From positions 1-54,728 of the forward strand of contig JALZUS010000045.1 in assembly GCA_023299885.1 (NCBI GenBank): DNA of 54,728 bases, read 5' to 3'. Position numbers and translations under genes: made by a program. Below, in pieces: positions 1-7,522 of the stretch. This DNA comes from Bdellovibrionales bacterium. Its GTDB lineage: Bacteria > Bdellovibrionota > Bdellovibrionia > Bdellovibrionales > UBA1609. How positions within the stretch are numbered: position 1 is the first letter of the stretch; each line of letters begins with the position of its first letter. A model generated the notes under the pieces. It was not told where the DNA came from. It made no database searches and saw only the letters and a list, made by a program, of their open reading frames with translations.

Positions 1-1361
1 GAGTTATTAATAATTAAATTATTTTTATTGCTTAAATCAATCTCATTGAATGCACTATAGTTTACCTTGGCAGAGAAACTATAGTCTGAAAATAAAGGCT
101 TTATATAGTCTTTTATCGTAGACAGCCCTGTCTCCATAAAATTTTCTTTTTGAATTAACTCTACTGAATTTTTCCAACTATTTTTAAAGTTAGTTATAAA
201 GCCTATATGACTTTGAGTAAAACCATCATAACTATCAGAAGGATGCGCTTCAGTGTTATAGTATGGGTTGAAGAGCTTATTAACCATTACTTTTGCAAGA
301 GCCTTCAAACTGTTTAAGCTTAATTTTTCTGAAACAGCATTGAACTGGTGAGCCGCCTCTAACAAGGGGTCTATCTTATCCCACGGTATAGTTTTATTAC
401 TATAATTTTTTAAGCTATCATTTATAATTAAAATAAAAGACTCTATAACTTGATTGATCAGCTTAGTATTTAGCTTTCCTTTTTTAAACTCAGAAATAAC
501 TATCTGACCTGAAAGGTACGCTTTATATCCCTTAGCTATATTTTTTATAAAAGGAGACCATTGGCTTTTAGTAATTTTATTACCGCCAGACTCATTTAGC
601 ATAGCCTCTTTTAAGACCTTTATTAACTCAACAGATTTTTTAGCATTATCTAGTCTACTTTTTTTATCAGTATCATTATCCCACCCATAAAACTTCATAA
701 GTTCTAATACTAATGTTTCAATTTCGACTATTTCTATAGGCTGGCCAGAGTTCGGCAGCTTGCTGTAAAACTCATAACCTATAACATTTAAATCTTTTTC
801 GAGCTGATTAAAACCTTCAGATAAATCTTTATTATACCCCTTAAGCTTCATAGCTTTTTTACTAATCAAAGACATATGCGGGTTTAATTTTTGAAACGCA
901 ATCGAAATAAACTCAATCCAAGATTTTACCTCTATTAACTCTTCATTAGACAATGACTCTTTGTCACCGCCTACAAAAGAAACTTTTAAGCTCATCAAAG
1001 AGTCTACCAAAGCATCTGTAACCACCTTATCTTCTGTAAATATCACTCTTTGAAAAAAGTTTTTTAGCTCAGCTTTTTTATGAATTCTACTGGCTATACT
1101 CACTTTTTTATCTTCACCAGCTACATAGTTTCTGAAAACTTCCACTGTATTTAAAGCGCATTCATTAAAGCTTTTAATTTCTGCCTCAGAAAGTTGTCCA
1201 GAGTAATAATCTTCTGTCACTTTATCTATTTTTGAAAAACAATTCTTTTGGACACTAACAGGCTTAGCTTTTTCTACTGTGTCATTAATTTTTAATCCAC
1301 AAGAAACCAAGAGGACTAAAGGCATAATCAAACATAATATTGATTTAAATCTATAGAGCAT
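1..1361 (-). CDS. Exported lipoprotein of unknown function, C-terminus cut by window edge
   Basis: The frame is open from the ATG at 1361 to base 1, giving at least 453 residues with no stop, so the 3' end lies outside the window. The N-terminus is a lipoprotein signal: MLYR, a hydrophobic stretch, then the lipobox LLVSC with the acylated Cys at residue 21. The mature part is largely helical and charged, with recurring segments of the type LSxxEIxxF. Cys41 and Cys68 are spaced C-x26-C, exactly as Cys52 and Cys79 in the lipoprotein at 2863-4962, and the flanking residues align, so the two are paralogues. The start overlaps the upstream barrel gene by 11 nt, with GGAG 6 nt before the ATG inside the barrel gene, which implies translational coupling. 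I do not recognise a family; the function is unknown. Confidence 0.85.
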   Translation of the reverse strand, partial: MLYRFKSILCLIMPLVLLVSCGLKINDTVEKAKPVSVQKNCFSKIDKVTEDYYSGQLSEAEIKSFNECALNTVEVFRNYVAGEDKKVSIASRIHKKAELKNFFQRVIFTEDKVVTDALVDSLMSLKVSFVGGDKESLSNEELIEVKSWIEFISIAFQKLNPHMSLISKKAMKLKGYNKDLSEGFNQLEKDLNVIGYEFYSKLPNSGQPIEIVEIETLVLELMKFYGWDNDTDKKSRLDNAKKSVELIKVLKEAMLNESGGNKITKSQWSPFIKNIAKGYKAYLSGQIVISEFKKGKLNTKLINQVIESFILIINDSLKNYSNKTIPWDKIDPLLEAAHQFNAVSEKLSLNSLKALAKVMVNKLFNPYYNTEAHPSDSYDGFTQSHIGFITNFKNSWKNSVELIQKENFMETGLSTIKDYIKPLFSDYSFSAKVNYSAFNEIDLSNKNNLIINN

Positions 1362-2685
1362 AACGAACTCCAATCTCAAACAAATCATTATCACGAACAG
1401 GTGTGAAAAAAGCTTCATCACTTTCTCTATCAACGCCCACAACAACTAGTTTAATTGAAGCTTGCAACTTAGAATTTATATCTTTTGAAATATTTAAAGA
1501 GCCTAATCCACCCTTTTCAAGGAATGAATATAAGTAGCCCGCATTAACTTTAAAACTATCGGAAAATTTATGCTCTAAACTCAACTGCATTGCCTCAGTA
1601 TAGTAGTGTCGGTTTACATTCACTTCTACATCTAAAACTGCACCACTGACTAACGTAGGTTCATCTTCTAATTTTCCTAACTTAGCATTTAAATATGAGA
1701 TGCCTACAGTTGTAGCCTCACCCAATAAGACATCAACACCTAAACTCAATTGATCTCTATCTTCTAAATTAGCTTCAAAAAGCTTAGCCTCAAGCTTTGG
1801 CCTTTCCGGCCTTTCAATAATAAAATCGGCCCACAAGTTAAACTTAGGCTTGGTATAGGATAACTCTAAAACAGCTAACTTATGATAAGGCACTGAAATA
1901 CTCACCTCAGATAAAACATCAAAGCTACCTGAAACACTGCTGTCTAAAATGATATCCGCCGCCAAATGAAGCTGATTCATTGGCTTGTACGCTAGCAATG
2001 ATTTTAAAGACCATTGAGTACTTGGCCTAAAACCAGCATAAAAAATAGCCCCAGGGTTTAAAAGAAGCTCATCAATTTTTGGAGTTTCTAGATCATACTT
2101 AATTTCAGAGACTACGCCACCACCCACTTGAATTTCTGAAATCTGACCACCAAACCATCTATTGCTTGAGTAAAGGTCACCATTGTCTTCATTCACCTTG
2201 GGCCCTTGGTCAGGAAGATAAATAGGCAATAAACTTGCGCCTAAATAGAAGCTTTTATTAATATTATGCTTATAGTGAAAACCAAATAAACCTTGCCTTA
2301 CTGGAGCTAAGTAGTCTTTTCTATAGTAAGGGTTTACAAAACTTAAACTCCATACCTTCTCAAATTTAAAAGATTCGATGGCTTTTCTTCCAAACCACCA
2401 CTTATCAGACTTATCATTTGTTACATAAGCCTCAGGCAAAAAGACTTGAGAGGACTCAAGGTCATTAAGAGTAAGTTCTGCTCCTACATGATAATAGGAA
2501 CGATAACCTAAAAGCTCTGAGTTTTTTTTATAAGTAGAAATTAATGAGTAATACCAATCATCAAGGCCAGGCCTTTCTGTCTCCGTTAAAAAAGAAGTTA
2601 CTTTTGCTTCTAGACTTAGCTCGGCAAAAGCACCTATTGAGGCACTTAAACTCACTAAAAATAGAATAACTAAGCTTAACTTCAA
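1351..2685 (-). CDS. Outer-membrane beta-barrel protein, module 2 (unknown function)
   Basis: 444 residues. It starts at TTG with AAAGGGG just upstream. Residues 1-21 form a signal peptide ending in GAFA before ELS. The rest alternates polar and hydrophobic residues in amphipathic strands rich in Tyr, Trp and Phe, as in outer-membrane barrels. The last residues are IGVRYAL, a barrel-like end although the final residue is Leu rather than the usual Phe. It shares ordered landmarks with the barrel at 4952-6382: a GRK motif, GLxGxHY, a PxYxP segment, WF, and RPS followed by YKP. The two are therefore paralogues. It is followed by the lipoprotein at 1-1361 with an 11-nt overlap. The substrate or role is unknown; it could be a channel or a partner for the lipoprotein. 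Confidence 0.8.
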   Translation of the reverse strand: MKLSLVILFLVSLSASIGAFAELSLEAKVTSFLTETERPGLDDWYYSLISTYKKNSELLGYRSYYHVGAELTLNDLESSQVFLPEAYVTNDKSDKWWFGRKAIESFKFEKVWSLSFVNPYYRKDYLAPVRQGLFGFHYKHNINKSFYLGASLLPIYLPDQGPKVNEDNGDLYSSNRWFGGQISEIQVGGGVVSEIKYDLETPKIDELLLNPGAIFYAGFRPSTQWSLKSLLAYKPMNQLHLAADIILDSSVSGSFDVLSEVSISVPYHKLAVLELSYTKPKFNLWADFIIERPERPKLEAKLFEANLEDRDQLSLGVDVLLGEATTVGISYLNAKLGKLEDEPTLVSGAVLDVEVNVNRHYYTEAMQLSLEHKFSDSFKVNAGYLYSFLEKGGLGSLNISKDINSKLQASIKLVVVGVDRESDEAFFTPVRDNDLFEIGVRYAL

Positions 2686-2700
2686 ATTAACCCCTTTAGG

Positions 2701-2728
2701 ATATATAGATGGCTTCGTATCTATATAT
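2701..2728. promoter_or_regulatory. Perfect 10-bp inverted repeat upstream of module 2 barrel gene
   Basis: ATATATAGAT and ATCTATATAT are separated by 8 nt. The repeat lies 16-43 nt before the TTG start of the barrel at 2685. On the minus strand a TAATAT element (2730-2725) overlaps its edge, so the palindrome may be an operator over a promoter or a 5' leader hairpin. No regulator is identified. Confidence 0.45.
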
Positions 2729-2862
2729 TAACATTTGCAATTAGGGGTCCAAATAAGGAATTTGTGTATTGAATTAATCACAGGTTCAGATCGAAATCAG
2801 GACATTCCCATGTATTTTTTACACAGATACACAAGATTTAACCAGTGAAAAAAAAAGCTTAT

Positions 2863-4962
2863 TTAAGGCAATATAGCTTTAATTTTTGAGACTAAGTTTA
2901 TAAAATCTAAGCGGCTCACGGAAAGATTCCACTTATCATCTCTAACCTTCCAGTGCTCAAATCTCAATTTTGAAAGCTTATTGTCAGTAGGCAGCTCATT
3001 ATACTTTAAAATGTAAGTAGAGGTGGCTAGCAACGTCTCTTTAAGCTCTTGAGAGTCAGTACCTAATGCTACTGAAACAGCTGGCCACAAAGTATCAATA
3101 ACTGACAAAGTCTCTTTTGTATTTAAGAGACCGTCCCCGTCTTTATCTTGACCTATAACTAAAGACTCTATCACTTGAGAAACAAGGCTTCCTATAAGTA
3201 AATTTGTAGATGTAACCTCTTCTTCCAATTTTGAAAAAGGTGAAAGCATTACTGATAAGTCGTCTCTAACAGCTTTACTTTTTAATACAGTATCACTCCA
3301 TACAGGAATAACATCCCAAGCCATATCTGTACTTAAATAATCAAGCATACAATCTGTTTTTGGAAAGCACGAATCTCCTGCTTCTTTTTGCCAAACTCTT
3401 GATGTGGCTTGCGATGAAATTGCATAACTTAAAATATTAATCAGTTCGTATTTATGAAAAACGGCATCGGCCTTAGAGTTTGGTAAAAAACTATTTCCAA
3501 AGATAAAAAGTATCTGTGGTATAGACTTGTAAAGGCTTTCTGGAGCTCCAAGCTTCAAAGCTAAAGGCTTAAAGTCTTCAAATAATGACTGAAGCTCATC
3601 CCATGAAAGCTGCACTCCATCTTCACTATATGACTCCATCAATACAGAACTTAAAATATGAAATGTATTAAATTTAGAATAACTATTTGAGCTATCAGCC
3701 TTTATTGAATCTACGCTATTTCCTGGAAATACCAGTCTGCCATCATTGCTATGAAAGAGTGGCCATTGCATGCCTTCAACAAAGTTTTTCAAATCACCAC
3801 TCAAACCGCCAGAGCTTATTATTTGTTTCTGATTTTTTGACCAACTTAAATAATGACTCATAATAAACTCTAATGAATCTTCTGTGAAGTTGTTATTCTC
3901 GTTTTTAAAGACATTACGACTGATTACAACCCACGCCTCCATTAAATCCTTAGATGTTAAGTCTTGCGGTAAAAAACCTAATTGAGCTACTGACTCCATT
4001 GTTTCAGCAAGGTCTTCATCAGACCATAAATTATCTTTACTCAGCTTAAGACCCTCTTTGATTAAAGAGTGCAACTCATTAACAATCTCATCTAAAACTT
4101 CAAAGCCTTCTTTAGTATTTAAAGCATGATCTTTTTTTATGCGCTTCCACTTATACAATGAACCATAAACTTTAACAGCTATTTCAGTTATTCTTTGCCA
4201 ATCATTGGCCTCTATAAAGCTACCTTCTCCACCTAAAAATCTCTTTTTAATATTAAAAAGAACTGGGACAAAAGCTTCAGTTTTGAATGAACCTTTATTT
4301 AAAAATTCATTATCTATAAATCGAGCAAAAAGTTTTAAATCTTCTTGGCTATAACTCCCCCTAAATTCAGAAGTTAATGTAAGTATTGACTGCTCTAAAA
4401 CTTCTATAGACTGATTAGCACTTTCATTAGACATCTCACCTTTACTCTTTAAACTAAAAAGCTCTGGCAGCTCAGGAGAAAGCATTCCCATTGCTTTTGG
4501 GAAAGCCGTATTAATAATGTACCTAAAATGATTAAGCTCATCTTCACTAAATTGATTTCTTTTGTTGCCGAGCAAGACCTTTTTAAAATCTCTAAACTCT
4601 TTTTTATAGGCTTTTAAATTTATTTTAGAAGTAGATTTATCTAAAAATTTTTGAATAACATTAATAAGCCCGTCCATAGTTATAGACCTTGCATTGTCTA
4701 TATAGACATTAGCAATTGTATCAAAGCATCCCCAAAATTCGTTAATTTCAGAAACTTGCATTTTTCCATCAAAATACTTAGTAAAGGTTTCACCTAATCC
4801 AGTGATGCAAGTTAATTCATCAGAGGCTGTTCCCGCTTTACCGTTCTCCCCTTCAGCACCACTTTTTATTTTTATTTCTAAAATTTCTTTTTTTGATTCG
4901 TTCTCACCAGAACAACCTACAATTACAAAAGTAAGAACAATTAACATCGACCTAAAAAGCAT
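2863..4962 (-). CDS. Large lipoprotein with EF-hand-like loop, module 1 (unknown function)
   Basis: 699 residues. The signal ends in the lipobox VIVGC, with the acylated Cys at 17. Soon after (about residues 35-46) comes a short collagen-like run, GAEGENGKAG. The body is helical and contains repeated helix-loop-helix-like pieces such as FSEDELNHF. Residues 606-617 are a canonical EF-hand calcium loop, DKDGDGLLNTKE, with acidic residues at loop positions 1, 3, 5 and 12. Cys52 and Cys79 are spaced as in the paralogue at 1-1361. The ATG overlaps the stop of the barrel at 4952-6382 by 11 nt, with AGGAG 6 nt upstream. It is probably a surface or periplasmic calcium-binding lipoprotein working with the barrel. 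That role is inference, and I do not recognise the family. Confidence 0.85.
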   Translation of the reverse strand: MLFRSMLIVLTFVIVGCSGENESKKEILEIKIKSGAEGENGKAGTASDELTCITGLGETFTKYFDGKMQVSEINEFWGCFDTIANVYIDNARSITMDGLINVIQKFLDKSTSKINLKAYKKEFRDFKKVLLGNKRNQFSEDELNHFRYIINTAFPKAMGMLSPELPELFSLKSKGEMSNESANQSIEVLEQSILTLTSEFRGSYSQEDLKLFARFIDNEFLNKGSFKTEAFVPVLFNIKKRFLGGEGSFIEANDWQRITEIAVKVYGSLYKWKRIKKDHALNTKEGFEVLDEIVNELHSLIKEGLKLSKDNLWSDEDLAETMESVAQLGFLPQDLTSKDLMEAWVVISRNVFKNENNNFTEDSLEFIMSHYLSWSKNQKQIISSGGLSGDLKNFVEGMQWPLFHSNDGRLVFPGNSVDSIKADSSNSYSKFNTFHILSSVLMESYSEDGVQLSWDELQSLFEDFKPLALKLGAPESLYKSIPQILFIFGNSFLPNSKADAVFHKYELINILSYAISSQATSRVWQKEAGDSCFPKTDCMLDYLSTDMAWDVIPVWSDTVLKSKAVRDDLSVMLSPFSKLEEEVTSTNLLIGSLVSQVIESLVIGQDKDGDGLLNTKETLSVIDTLWPAVSVALGTDSQELKETLLATSTYILKYNELPTDNKLSKLRFEHWKVRDDKWNLSVSRLDFINLVSKIKAILP

Positions 4963-6382
4963 AAGAAACTCCTAAAGAGATTTGGTCACTGGATCTAAAA
5001 GAGCTCATAAAGCTTTTTTGAATATTCTCATCATCTACCAAACCAATTAAATCTATTTTTAAGTTGGCACTCCAGTTTTTATTAAAACGCATATCAATAA
5101 TATTACTAAAAACTAAACCTTTAAAGTCTAGGTCATAAACTAAAGACGACTTTGTAGAAAAATACTTATTTAATAATAAAGCTTGCGGAATAACTATCTC
5201 TGCCTTAAAAGCACTTTTAAATCTATAGTGGTTTCGAAAAAGAGACTTACCGGCAGAAGCTCTAGCACCACCATCTTCTTTATCGCCTCCGGATAAGTTC
5301 ATATAACCAATACTTAAATAGGAAGGCTTAGCATTATCATCCATAGCTAATTTTAACATAGCTGACACAACATGGCCTTCAGTAAGCCCCTTATATGTTA
5401 CTCCATCATTAAAATCCAAATCTCTATCGACAGCTTCATAGTTATAAGAGGTCCACAAAGACAATGACTTTGTTAAAGACACTCTAGATTCTAAGCTCAC
5501 TAAATGATGATAAAAAAGCTCTGGCAAGACTTCGACCTGCGCAGCCACTTCTCTTGACTCTACTACATCTGTATCGTCTCCATCTAAAATAATTCTATCT
5601 TCACCACTAATAATAAAGCTATCAAAATTTGTAAGTAGCCGGTGACTTGGCTTGTAAATATAAGCCGCTTGAACCCAATCATTAACTTTACCTAAACGAA
5701 AAGTTAAACCCGCTGACGGCCTTAGAATTACTCTTGAAAAGTTAGGCTTATTAATTTCAAAAAAGATAGGGTTTAAACCAAGCCCAGGTATATCGACTAG
5801 ATTAACTGGCGGATTAAACCATGGGTTTTTTGAGCTTATTACGCCATTCTTTAAAATAGAGCCTGCTGAAAATTCTGGAATATAAAAGGGAGACACAAAG
5901 AATAATGACTTTATATTTTCAGACCATACTTTATTATAATGATAACCAATCAGTCCGGCCTTATCTGGAGAAGCCTCTTCCCATACAAACCGAGGCTCCC
6001 AATGGCCATTATCCCAATAAGAATCTGACCAGCTCCACTCTTGAAGCTTTCTTCCTATAAAGACCTGGCTTTTATTTTTCTTTTTGGACAAATAAAATTC
6101 AGGAGCATTAATATAAAACTTTTTTTCAATCGGGCTAACAATAAGATTTGCGTCTGCGTTTGAAAACCAGCCGTTGCTCCAAGATTTATTTTGCTTAAAA
6201 CCAAAAGTAAAAAGCTCAAGGTGACTACTAGCCTCATCTCTAAAAAAATCTGTATTTGACCTTACAAACTGATAGTGGTCGTAACTAAAAGAATATTTAT
6301 TGTAATTAGGCTCGTTGGCCATCGCTTTGTTAAAACCAAAACTAACAACCAAATTTGCCAACAAAAGTAAAAACTTAAACAA
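4952..6382 (-). CDS. Outer-membrane beta-barrel protein, module 1 (unknown function)
   Basis: 476 residues from the TTG at 6382. I chose this start because GGGGGA lies 6 nt upstream and it gives a clean signal peptide (MFKFLLLLANLV... ending NKAMA, about residue 22). The frame stays open to a TTG at 6424, which would add 14 residues and spoil the signal. The mature protein has many alternating amphipathic strands and ends SLGVSYAF, a typical outer-membrane assembly signal with terminal Phe. It resembles the barrel at 1351-2685 in order and spacing of motifs. Its 3' end overlaps the lipoprotein gene at 2863-4962. It heads the double module and is unlike any family I can name, such as porins or TonB receptors. 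Confidence 0.8.
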   Translation of the reverse strand: MFKFLLLLANLVVSFGFNKAMANEPNYNKYSFSYDHYQFVRSNTDFFRDEASSHLELFTFGFKQNKSWSNGWFSNADANLIVSPIEKKFYINAPEFYLSKKKNKSQVFIGRKLQEWSWSDSYWDNGHWEPRFVWEEASPDKAGLIGYHYNKVWSENIKSLFFVSPFYIPEFSAGSILKNGVISSKNPWFNPPVNLVDIPGLGLNPIFFEINKPNFSRVILRPSAGLTFRLGKVNDWVQAAYIYKPSHRLLTNFDSFIISGEDRIILDGDDTDVVESREVAAQVEVLPELFYHHLVSLESRVSLTKSLSLWTSYNYEAVDRDLDFNDGVTYKGLTEGHVVSAMLKLAMDDNAKPSYLSIGYMNLSGGDKEDGGARASAGKSLFRNHYRFKSAFKAEIVIPQALLLNKYFSTKSSLVYDLDFKGLVFSNIIDMRFNKNWSANLKIDLIGLVDDENIQKSFMSSFRSSDQISLGVSYAF

Positions 6383-6457
6383 TGAGATTCCCCCGAGCTC
6401 TTTATCTAGACTAAATTCTAGCAAACTTTACTTGAAGGCTTTAACGCAGCGCTATAC

Positions 6458-7201
6458 TTAACCTAGAAAGGCTTTAATTTGTTCTATAACCCATTCTGGC
6501 TCATCCATAGGCATTTCATGACCTGCTGTAGGGTGAGAAATTACGGGCCAATCTGTGTGCCTTTGTATATCTCTATAGCATTGTGGGCTTACTAATTTGT
6601 CTTGCTCACTAGCTAAAAACAGTACTGGCTGCTGAGGAAGATTTTTAAGTTTGTAAATTGAAGCCGCAACAAGCTGCCTGATTACTGTTGAAACCTTAAA
6701 TGGTTTTGTCTTCCATAAGTTTTGCCAAGCTTTCGAAACCTTCTCATATTGTTCTGTATTGCTACTTACAATTTTGAGTATTGTTTCTTCTCGCCTTTTT
6801 GTAGACATAAAAAACATAGCTATAAAATCATAATAAACTTTATGACTAAGCCTATGATAAAAACGACTCCAGTTTGAAAAACTAGAGTTAACCATTATAA
6901 TTTTTTTTATTTTACCTGGCCTAATATGAGACCACTCTGCCGTTACCATTCCACCCAAAGAAAGTCCGACAATATAAGTTTCGTCACTGATCATGTTTTT
7001 CTTAGAAGCTTCAGTGTCCATAAACTCAGCTATTGCTTTTATAGATAATTGAGACTTTATATCGTAAAACTCCCCCGTACCCGGAAGGTCTATCGTGTGG
7101 ATTTTAAACTCAGGCATTGCAGTTGCTATTAATTTTGGAAATTCACCCCAATGGCGAGCATCTCTACCGAGCCCTCGTAATAATATAATACTTTTTCCCA
7201 T
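6458..7201 (-). CDS. Alpha/beta-hydrolase fold esterase-like protein
   Basis: 247 residues from the ATG at 7201. The frame extends 22 codons further upstream to 7267, but the fold begins with MGKSIILLRGLG, so the shorter form is preferred. The nucleophile elbow is GLSLGG (Ser81). A probable acid is in SEQDKLV and the catalytic His in AGHEMPM near the C-terminus. There is no signal peptide, so it is probably a cytosolic esterase or lipase-like enzyme related to pimeloyl-ACP methyl ester esterases. The sequence gives no substrate. The usual HG oxyanion motif is replaced by RGLGRD. It lies downstream of the nrd promoter region in the opposite direction and 75 nt before the barrel modules. Confidence 0.75.
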   Translation of the reverse strand: MGKSIILLRGLGRDARHWGEFPKLIATAMPEFKIHTIDLPGTGEFYDIKSQLSIKAIAEFMDTEASKKNMISDETYIVGLSLGGMVTAEWSHIRPGKIKKIIMVNSSFSNWSRFYHRLSHKVYYDFIAMFFMSTKRREETILKIVSSNTEQYEKVSKAWQNLWKTKPFKVSTVIRQLVAASIYKLKNLPQQPVLFLASEQDKLVSPQCYRDIQRHTDWPVISHPTAGHEMPMDEPEWVIEQIKAFLG

Positions 7202-7522
7202 ATCTAACTCTATTCTAACCACACAAAATAAAGAACTTATTTTTAAGCATTCGGATCTTTTTGTCATTTTTTACGCAGCCTATTCATTAATCAACGAGCG
7301 CTAACAAAGTGAGCATTTAAAAATGAAATCAAAGCTATTGGCAGGACTAAACTTTGACGTTTTAGACAAGACCAAATTCCATGCGTCGAGAAAAAAAATA
7401 TTTTTTTCACACAAAGCTTGTCCCATCATAGCTTTTTCAATTCTTACGCATCCTATTAAGGCCAAAAGCCTAGTTTTGCTGTTTGACAGAGGCCACATAG
7501 ACTGAATATCGTCTTCCTAAAG

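Follow-up and report, generated by a model that had tools for sequence, protein, structure and literature searches.

Two paralogous gene pairs lie at the start of the window, the 54,728-nucleotide stretch of DNA that was analysed, and each is proposed to encode a translationally coupled outer-membrane complex. In this complex a channel and a helical lipoprotein, the latter probably able to bind calcium, would be obligate partners, a reading held at a probability of roughly 0.58. As judged by the sequence searches run, the barrel and the lipoprotein are two new protein families. Approximately 78% of the sampled Bdellovibrionota genomes keep the pair, often twice, and neither protein is named in the family databases searched. 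Such conservation across a phylum noted for its bacterial predators suggests that the pair likely matters for the envelope or the way of life of these organisms. A description of the pair was not found in the literature searched, the coverage of which lay mostly outside subscription journals.

The window is contig C45 (genome G000, 1.84 Mb, 92% complete), and its first base lies inside the lipoprotein B gene. Both gene pairs were confirmed by translation and inspection of positions 1-7200, with all four genes on the minus strand. The features are:

4952..6382, minus strand: barrel A, 476 aa from a TTG at 6382, the better start (the longest ORF reaches 6424); signal peptide at the N-terminus, C-terminus ...ISLGVSYAF followed by the stop
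5807..6070, minus strand: most conserved stretch of barrel A, residues 105-192
4952..4972, minus strand: dual-coded junction A, with GGAG at 4969-4972, the lipoprotein A ATG at 4960-4962, the barrel A stop and the overlap at 4952-4962
2863..4962, minus strand: lipoprotein A, 699 aa, with lipobox Cys17, C52-x26-C79, a Cys pair C532/C538 and approximately 11 EF-hand-like helix-loop-helix units
3112..3147, minus strand: canonical EF-hand loop DKDGDGLLNTKE of lipoprotein A, residues 606-617
1351..2685, minus strand: barrel B, 444 aa, TTG start, the paralogue of barrel A
1351..1371, minus strand: dual-coded junction B, with GGAG at 1368-1371, the lipoprotein B ATG at 1359-1361, the barrel B stop and the overlap at 1351-1361
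3..1361, minus strand: lipoprotein B, N-terminal 453 codons only
6458..7267, minus strand: alpha/beta hydrolase (cluster c3), directly upstream of barrel A

Lipoprotein B is incomplete in the window because the window begins at a contig end. The remaining 401 C-terminal codons, with the EF loop DLDQNGIIDKKE, were located at the end of contig C85 (L225:5869-7074, minus strand). The two contigs, C45 and C85, are apparently neighbours, with the gene for lipoprotein B leaving one and finishing on the other.

The overlaps of pairs A and B are each exactly 11 nt (ATGCTTTTTAG and ATGCTCTATAG), and GGAG is found 6 nt before the ATG in both, as originally described. Of 112 distinct barrels with complete sequence, 89 place the lipoprotein start at exactly -11 (86 ATG, 2 TTG and 1 GTG), and the sharing of this start rules out a chance 11-nt overlap. 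Among the other overlapping co-directional neighbours of the same loci, overlap length peaks at 4 nt (51 cases), with 11 nt occurring in 6. The junction follows the pattern ...GGx nnn nnn TAT GTn TTT TAA. Frame 1 encodes the C-terminal G-x-x-Y-V/A-F-stop signal of the barrel, while frame 2 supplies the Shine-Dalgarno (SD) sequence, the ATG and the first lipoprotein codons (M-x-F-K/N/R). One short stretch in this way codes for the barrel assembly signal as well as the ribosome-binding site and start codon of the next gene, and the overlap measures 11 nt because the C-terminal signal doubles as the start site of the second frame. This explanation is absent from the original prediction, as are the EF-hand character of the lipoprotein, the co-occurrence across the phylum and the great age of the duplication.

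The uncoupled pairs serve as natural controls for this dual-coded junction. An SD-like motif is present upstream in 83 of the 89 coupled barrels, compared with 6 of the 23 uncoupled. The penultimate barrel residue is V, A, G, D or E in all 89 coupled barrels, because the ATG demands it, and in 4 of the 23 uncoupled barrels, the other 19 having I, L, M, Q, S or R. As the uncoupled barrels drift, the overlap is evidently maintained and constrains the barrel protein. From the anatomy of the junction we infer that the barrel and the lipoprotein are translationally coupled. A 1:1 complex would be the natural inference from such a linked, coupled pair. Overlapping genes that run in one direction are reported to code frequently for the subunits of a heteromeric complex (PMC10666635).

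Barrels A and B are homologous (23% identity over 394 aa, E 2e-16), which bears out the likeness noted in the original prediction. Its statement that neither partner belongs to a known family was also borne out, as no Pfam or NCBIfam family fits; for the barrels, no fitting Pfam, NCBIfam or PDB sequence family was found (Pfam scan of 40 relatives). The family ranges from 440 to 600 aa in length. Barrel A shows the hallmarks of an outer-membrane beta-barrel, with a signal peptide, a predicted barrel fold and an aromatic signal at the C-terminus, and the final residue is F in 94 of the 112 distinct barrels. The barrel A model (pLDDT 88.5, pTM 0.85) is beta throughout once past the signal peptide, with strands beginning straight after it at residue 27. 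It contains approximately 20-21 strand segments, without a consistent alternation from which orientation could be read by strand parity. The best fold matches come from porins and from AlgE and Occ channels; ranked by query TM-score, AlgE comes first (TMq 0.48). The barrel is therefore predicted to be a porin/AlgE-size channel, its function as a channel resting on this fold class.

Residues 105-192 of barrel A, comprising two long loops and their adjoining strands, have a column entropy of 1.96 bits versus 2.47 elsewhere. The family consensus of this stretch is GRKxxxWSxxDxxWxxGxWxPxF...GLxGxF...SPxFxPxxGP...SxNPWFxxP, and residues G110, L144, G146 and P169 are invariant. It may form a constriction of the lumen or the face that binds the partner.

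Direct comparison of lipoproteins A and B gave a marginal match (E 0.013), and they are assigned to one family because each matches many others in a set of 66 proteins. Both start with ML(F/Y)R and contain a lipobox Cys and the C-x26-C spacing; the shared start and spacing had been predicted originally. Cys17 of the lipobox and both C-x26-C cysteines do not vary across 33 aligned relatives. The lipoprotein A model (pLDDT 83.3, pTM 0.81) is all-alpha after a disordered tether behind the lipobox (residues 16-47, pLDDT <50), and has approximately 11 sites with a short strand between two helices in the style of an EF-hand. A few divergent partners read from -11 are without a clear lipobox (L097 and L099, from G029 and G014), which suggests secreted, not lipidated, versions.

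EF-hands are the only coherent profile matches for the lipoproteins, NCBIfam giving isolated matches in single members. Pfam EF-hand families match 6-7 of 33 members (best E 3.7e-5), and the top PDB profile matches are EF-hand proteins (E 1e-3). By itself, lipoprotein A had Rota_NS26 (E 0.11) and RSIGE (E 0.16) as its sole Pfam/NCBIfam matches, and both were rejected as chance level. Its highest-probability structure matches are the calpain-3 penta-EF-hand domain (prob 0.99, TMt 0.62) and hippocalcin (0.98), with poor E-values; the structure search gave no whole-length PDB fold match for it (best E 0.013). A loose calcium-loop match was found in 32 of 61 lipoproteins versus 1.7 in shuffles, and in 30 of the 61 the loop falls at one shared alignment position. 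Approximately half of the lipoproteins are without a recognisable calcium loop. Lipoproteins A and B both keep a canonical one, a 12-residue DxDxDG...E loop flanked by helices in the model. This loop, in about half of the members, and the repeated helix-loop-helix units with short strands are shared with the EF-hand superfamily (calpain-3 penta-EF-hand, hippocalcin, CBP40). Unlike that superfamily, the present family combines approximately 11 units, most of them degenerate, in a single bacterial lipoprotein that is anchored in the membrane. The EF-hand-like sequence and predicted fold indicate that the lipoprotein probably binds calcium.

Barrels were present in 47 of the 59 related genomes searched. 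Across 291 Bdellovibrionota genomes, the barrel profile matches 230 and the lipoprotein profile 229; both genes are found in 227, the barrel only in 3, the lipoprotein only in 2 and neither in 59. The five one-gene exceptions are mostly incomplete genomes or marginal matches. The co-occurrence has a Fisher p of 2e-55, a figure that ignores kinship, and it recurs over many genera (115 of 163 positive for the barrel, 114 of 163 for the lipoprotein). Relatives do occur as adjacent pairs, as the original prediction requires, the barrels coupled at -11 being examples. Among the named carriers are the cultured Bdellovibrio sp. qaytius, with the locus at about 1411628-1415306 of CP025734.1, and many MAGs of Bdellovibrionales, Oligoflexia and Bacteriovoracaceae. 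A pattern scan across named genomes, using a pattern from an alignment of eight relatives since the 40-relative alignment was too diverse, returned 24 confirmed matches with titles all fitting Bdellovibrionota or the broader 'Deltaproteobacteria'. The same type of scan with the window barrel alone gave no matches.

The two genes overlap in most genomes. They are head to head in most of the f18 genomes examined, lipoprotein first in G040 and on separate contigs in f10. That the pair persists when unlinked or rearranged argues for function, not mere linkage. In the f10 genomes (L226, L227, L228 and L229), one barrel occurs together with one to three lipoprotein genes not linked to it, and a strict 1:1 ratio is therefore not universal. 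Both pairs are kept even in genomes of 1.2-1.3 Mb (G017 and G030), which suggests a core, not accessory, role.

Tree distances of the barrels and the lipoproteins correlate with an r of 0.80 (maximum of 0.22 in 2000 permutations). When partners were swapped within the 23 genomes with two complete pairs, r was at most 0.71 in 5000 trials versus the real value of 0.85. As the swaps never reach the real value, the pairs were duplicated as units and kept. This partner fidelity supports physical contact, short of proof, and partly reflects duplication as a unit. The tandem duplication of the original prediction stands in part, as the two paralogous pairs are real and their origin is ancient, not recent. 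In the barrel tree, the A-type barrels of f1 genomes form their own clade (support 0.97), and barrel B of the window is found on a long, poorly placed branch. A recent tandem duplication is ruled out by the f1 clade and the 23% identity of the barrel copies.

The alpha/beta hydrolase adjoins the module in 16 sampled genomes, and with an M14-type carboxypeptidase it often precedes the barrel. Beyond lipoprotein B, contig C85 encodes FabMG, KdtA and a family-9 glycosyltransferase (GT9). GT9 is located beside the module in f1, f8 and f10 genomes, at loci which include L071, L083, L225 and L226, often with the KDO transferase (KdtA) in f1 and f8. The LPS-core, hydrolase and carboxypeptidase neighbours fit an envelope role but may reflect plain synteny.

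In the proposed mechanism, the porin/AlgE-size barrel channel and the large lipoprotein, anchored in the same membrane, would form one two-part machine. The EF-hand-like helical repeats would form a rigid scaffold that docks on the barrel and is probably stabilised by calcium. A ribosome finishing the barrel would restart at the ATG within the barrel's own C-terminal signal, so that both proteins would be made together in a fixed ratio. The paralogous pairs, anciently duplicated as units, would probably differ in substrates or roles, and substrate would presumably pass through the barrel. A bolder version, considered rather unlikely, is that the EF-hand-repeat lipoprotein responds to calcium and either gates a dedicated barrel or guides what passes through it, as a phylum-defining complex of predatory bacteria. 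If true, this would be a calcium-controlled outer-membrane machine of a kind not described before.

The pair follows the plan of the barrel-lipoprotein systems Slam, SusCD and AlgE-AlgK but lacks the defining features tested for each. The Slams (type XI secretion) of Neisseria and other Proteobacteria combine a TPR N-terminal domain with a 14-stranded DUF560 barrel and a cargo that contains an 8-stranded barrel, and about half of them adjoin lipoprotein genes (PMC5449769). It is unlikely that the present barrel is similarly a dedicated translocon which exports the adjacent lipoprotein to the cell surface. An outer-membrane barrel gene does lie beside its cognate lipoprotein gene, as in about half of Slams, and the disordered tether behind the lipobox also favours display. 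The barrels, however, contain neither TPR nor DUF560 (no TPR Pfam family in 40 barrel relatives, and no DUF560 at E 0.1 in the 40), and the partner is all-alpha and EF-hand-like, not an 8-stranded barrel. The Slam-type membership raised in the original prediction is ruled out on these grounds, while a Slam-like way of working is possible. The SusC/SusD systems for nutrient uptake in Bacteroidota pair a TonB-dependent receptor containing a plug with a large alpha-helical lipoprotein, encoded in one operon. A similar uptake or sensing device, in which a surface lipoprotein captures a ligand and hands it to the barrel, is quite improbable. The barrel and large helical lipoprotein in one operon match the SusCD plan, as does the presence of several paralogous pairs, and two such pairs per genome would suit two ligands. 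SusC, however, has a plug and is approximately twice the size of the present barrels, which measure 440-600 aa and have neither a TonB plug nor receptor domains (searches of the barrel relatives gave no match to a plug or to TonB_dep_Rec). The EF-hand-like lipoproteins had no SusD match in 33 members, and no search run showed the two kinds of lipoprotein to be related. SusCD membership is ruled out by the plugless 476-aa barrel and the absence of a SusD match.

Similarly poor odds are given to export in the manner of AlgE and AlgK, the alginate exporters of Pseudomonas for which an AlgKX structure is on record (PMC9734138), with a channel and a periplasmic helical lipoprotein serving a polysaccharide or lipid-linked product. 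The AlgE-size fold, with AlgE among the closest matches, and the helical-repeat lipoprotein partner are in keeping with this, as are the LPS-core genes (GT9, KdtA) beside the module in f1, f8 and f10. Against it, there is no sequence-family match (Pfam, PDB), the repeats are EF-hand-like, not TPR, and no AlgK-like TPR was found. No exopolysaccharide genes were seen beside the present pair, nor a synthase among the neighbour clusters examined, where only LPS-core glycosyltransferases recur; these neighbours vary by family and may be chance synteny. PopA, the major outer-membrane protein of Bdellovibrio bacteriovorus, is described as a pentamer that traps lipid in a central chamber (PMC12228718). 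It is likewise a beta protein of the outer membrane and comes from the same group of bacteria, but the present barrel has no sequence match to any PDB chain, and a coupled lipoprotein is not mentioned for PopA in the part of that report consulted. Gene overlap and linked inheritance can also last without physical contact, and compact bacterial operons contain many overlapping genes, as the 51 other 4-nt overlaps of the same loci illustrate. It is nevertheless very unlikely that these are co-inherited outer-membrane proteins needing balanced expression without touching, given their near-perfect co-occurrence even where the two genes lie apart or in another arrangement.

In f1 and f8 genomes, another and unrelated barrel-lipoprotein pair lies close to the module (L071:12594-17109; also L062, L085 and L243). 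Neither representative scanned had a Pfam match. The genes of this pair overlap by 14 nt through the same kind of dual coding as in the main pair, with TAT-G in the barrel C-terminal ...LETxY... yielding the ATG.
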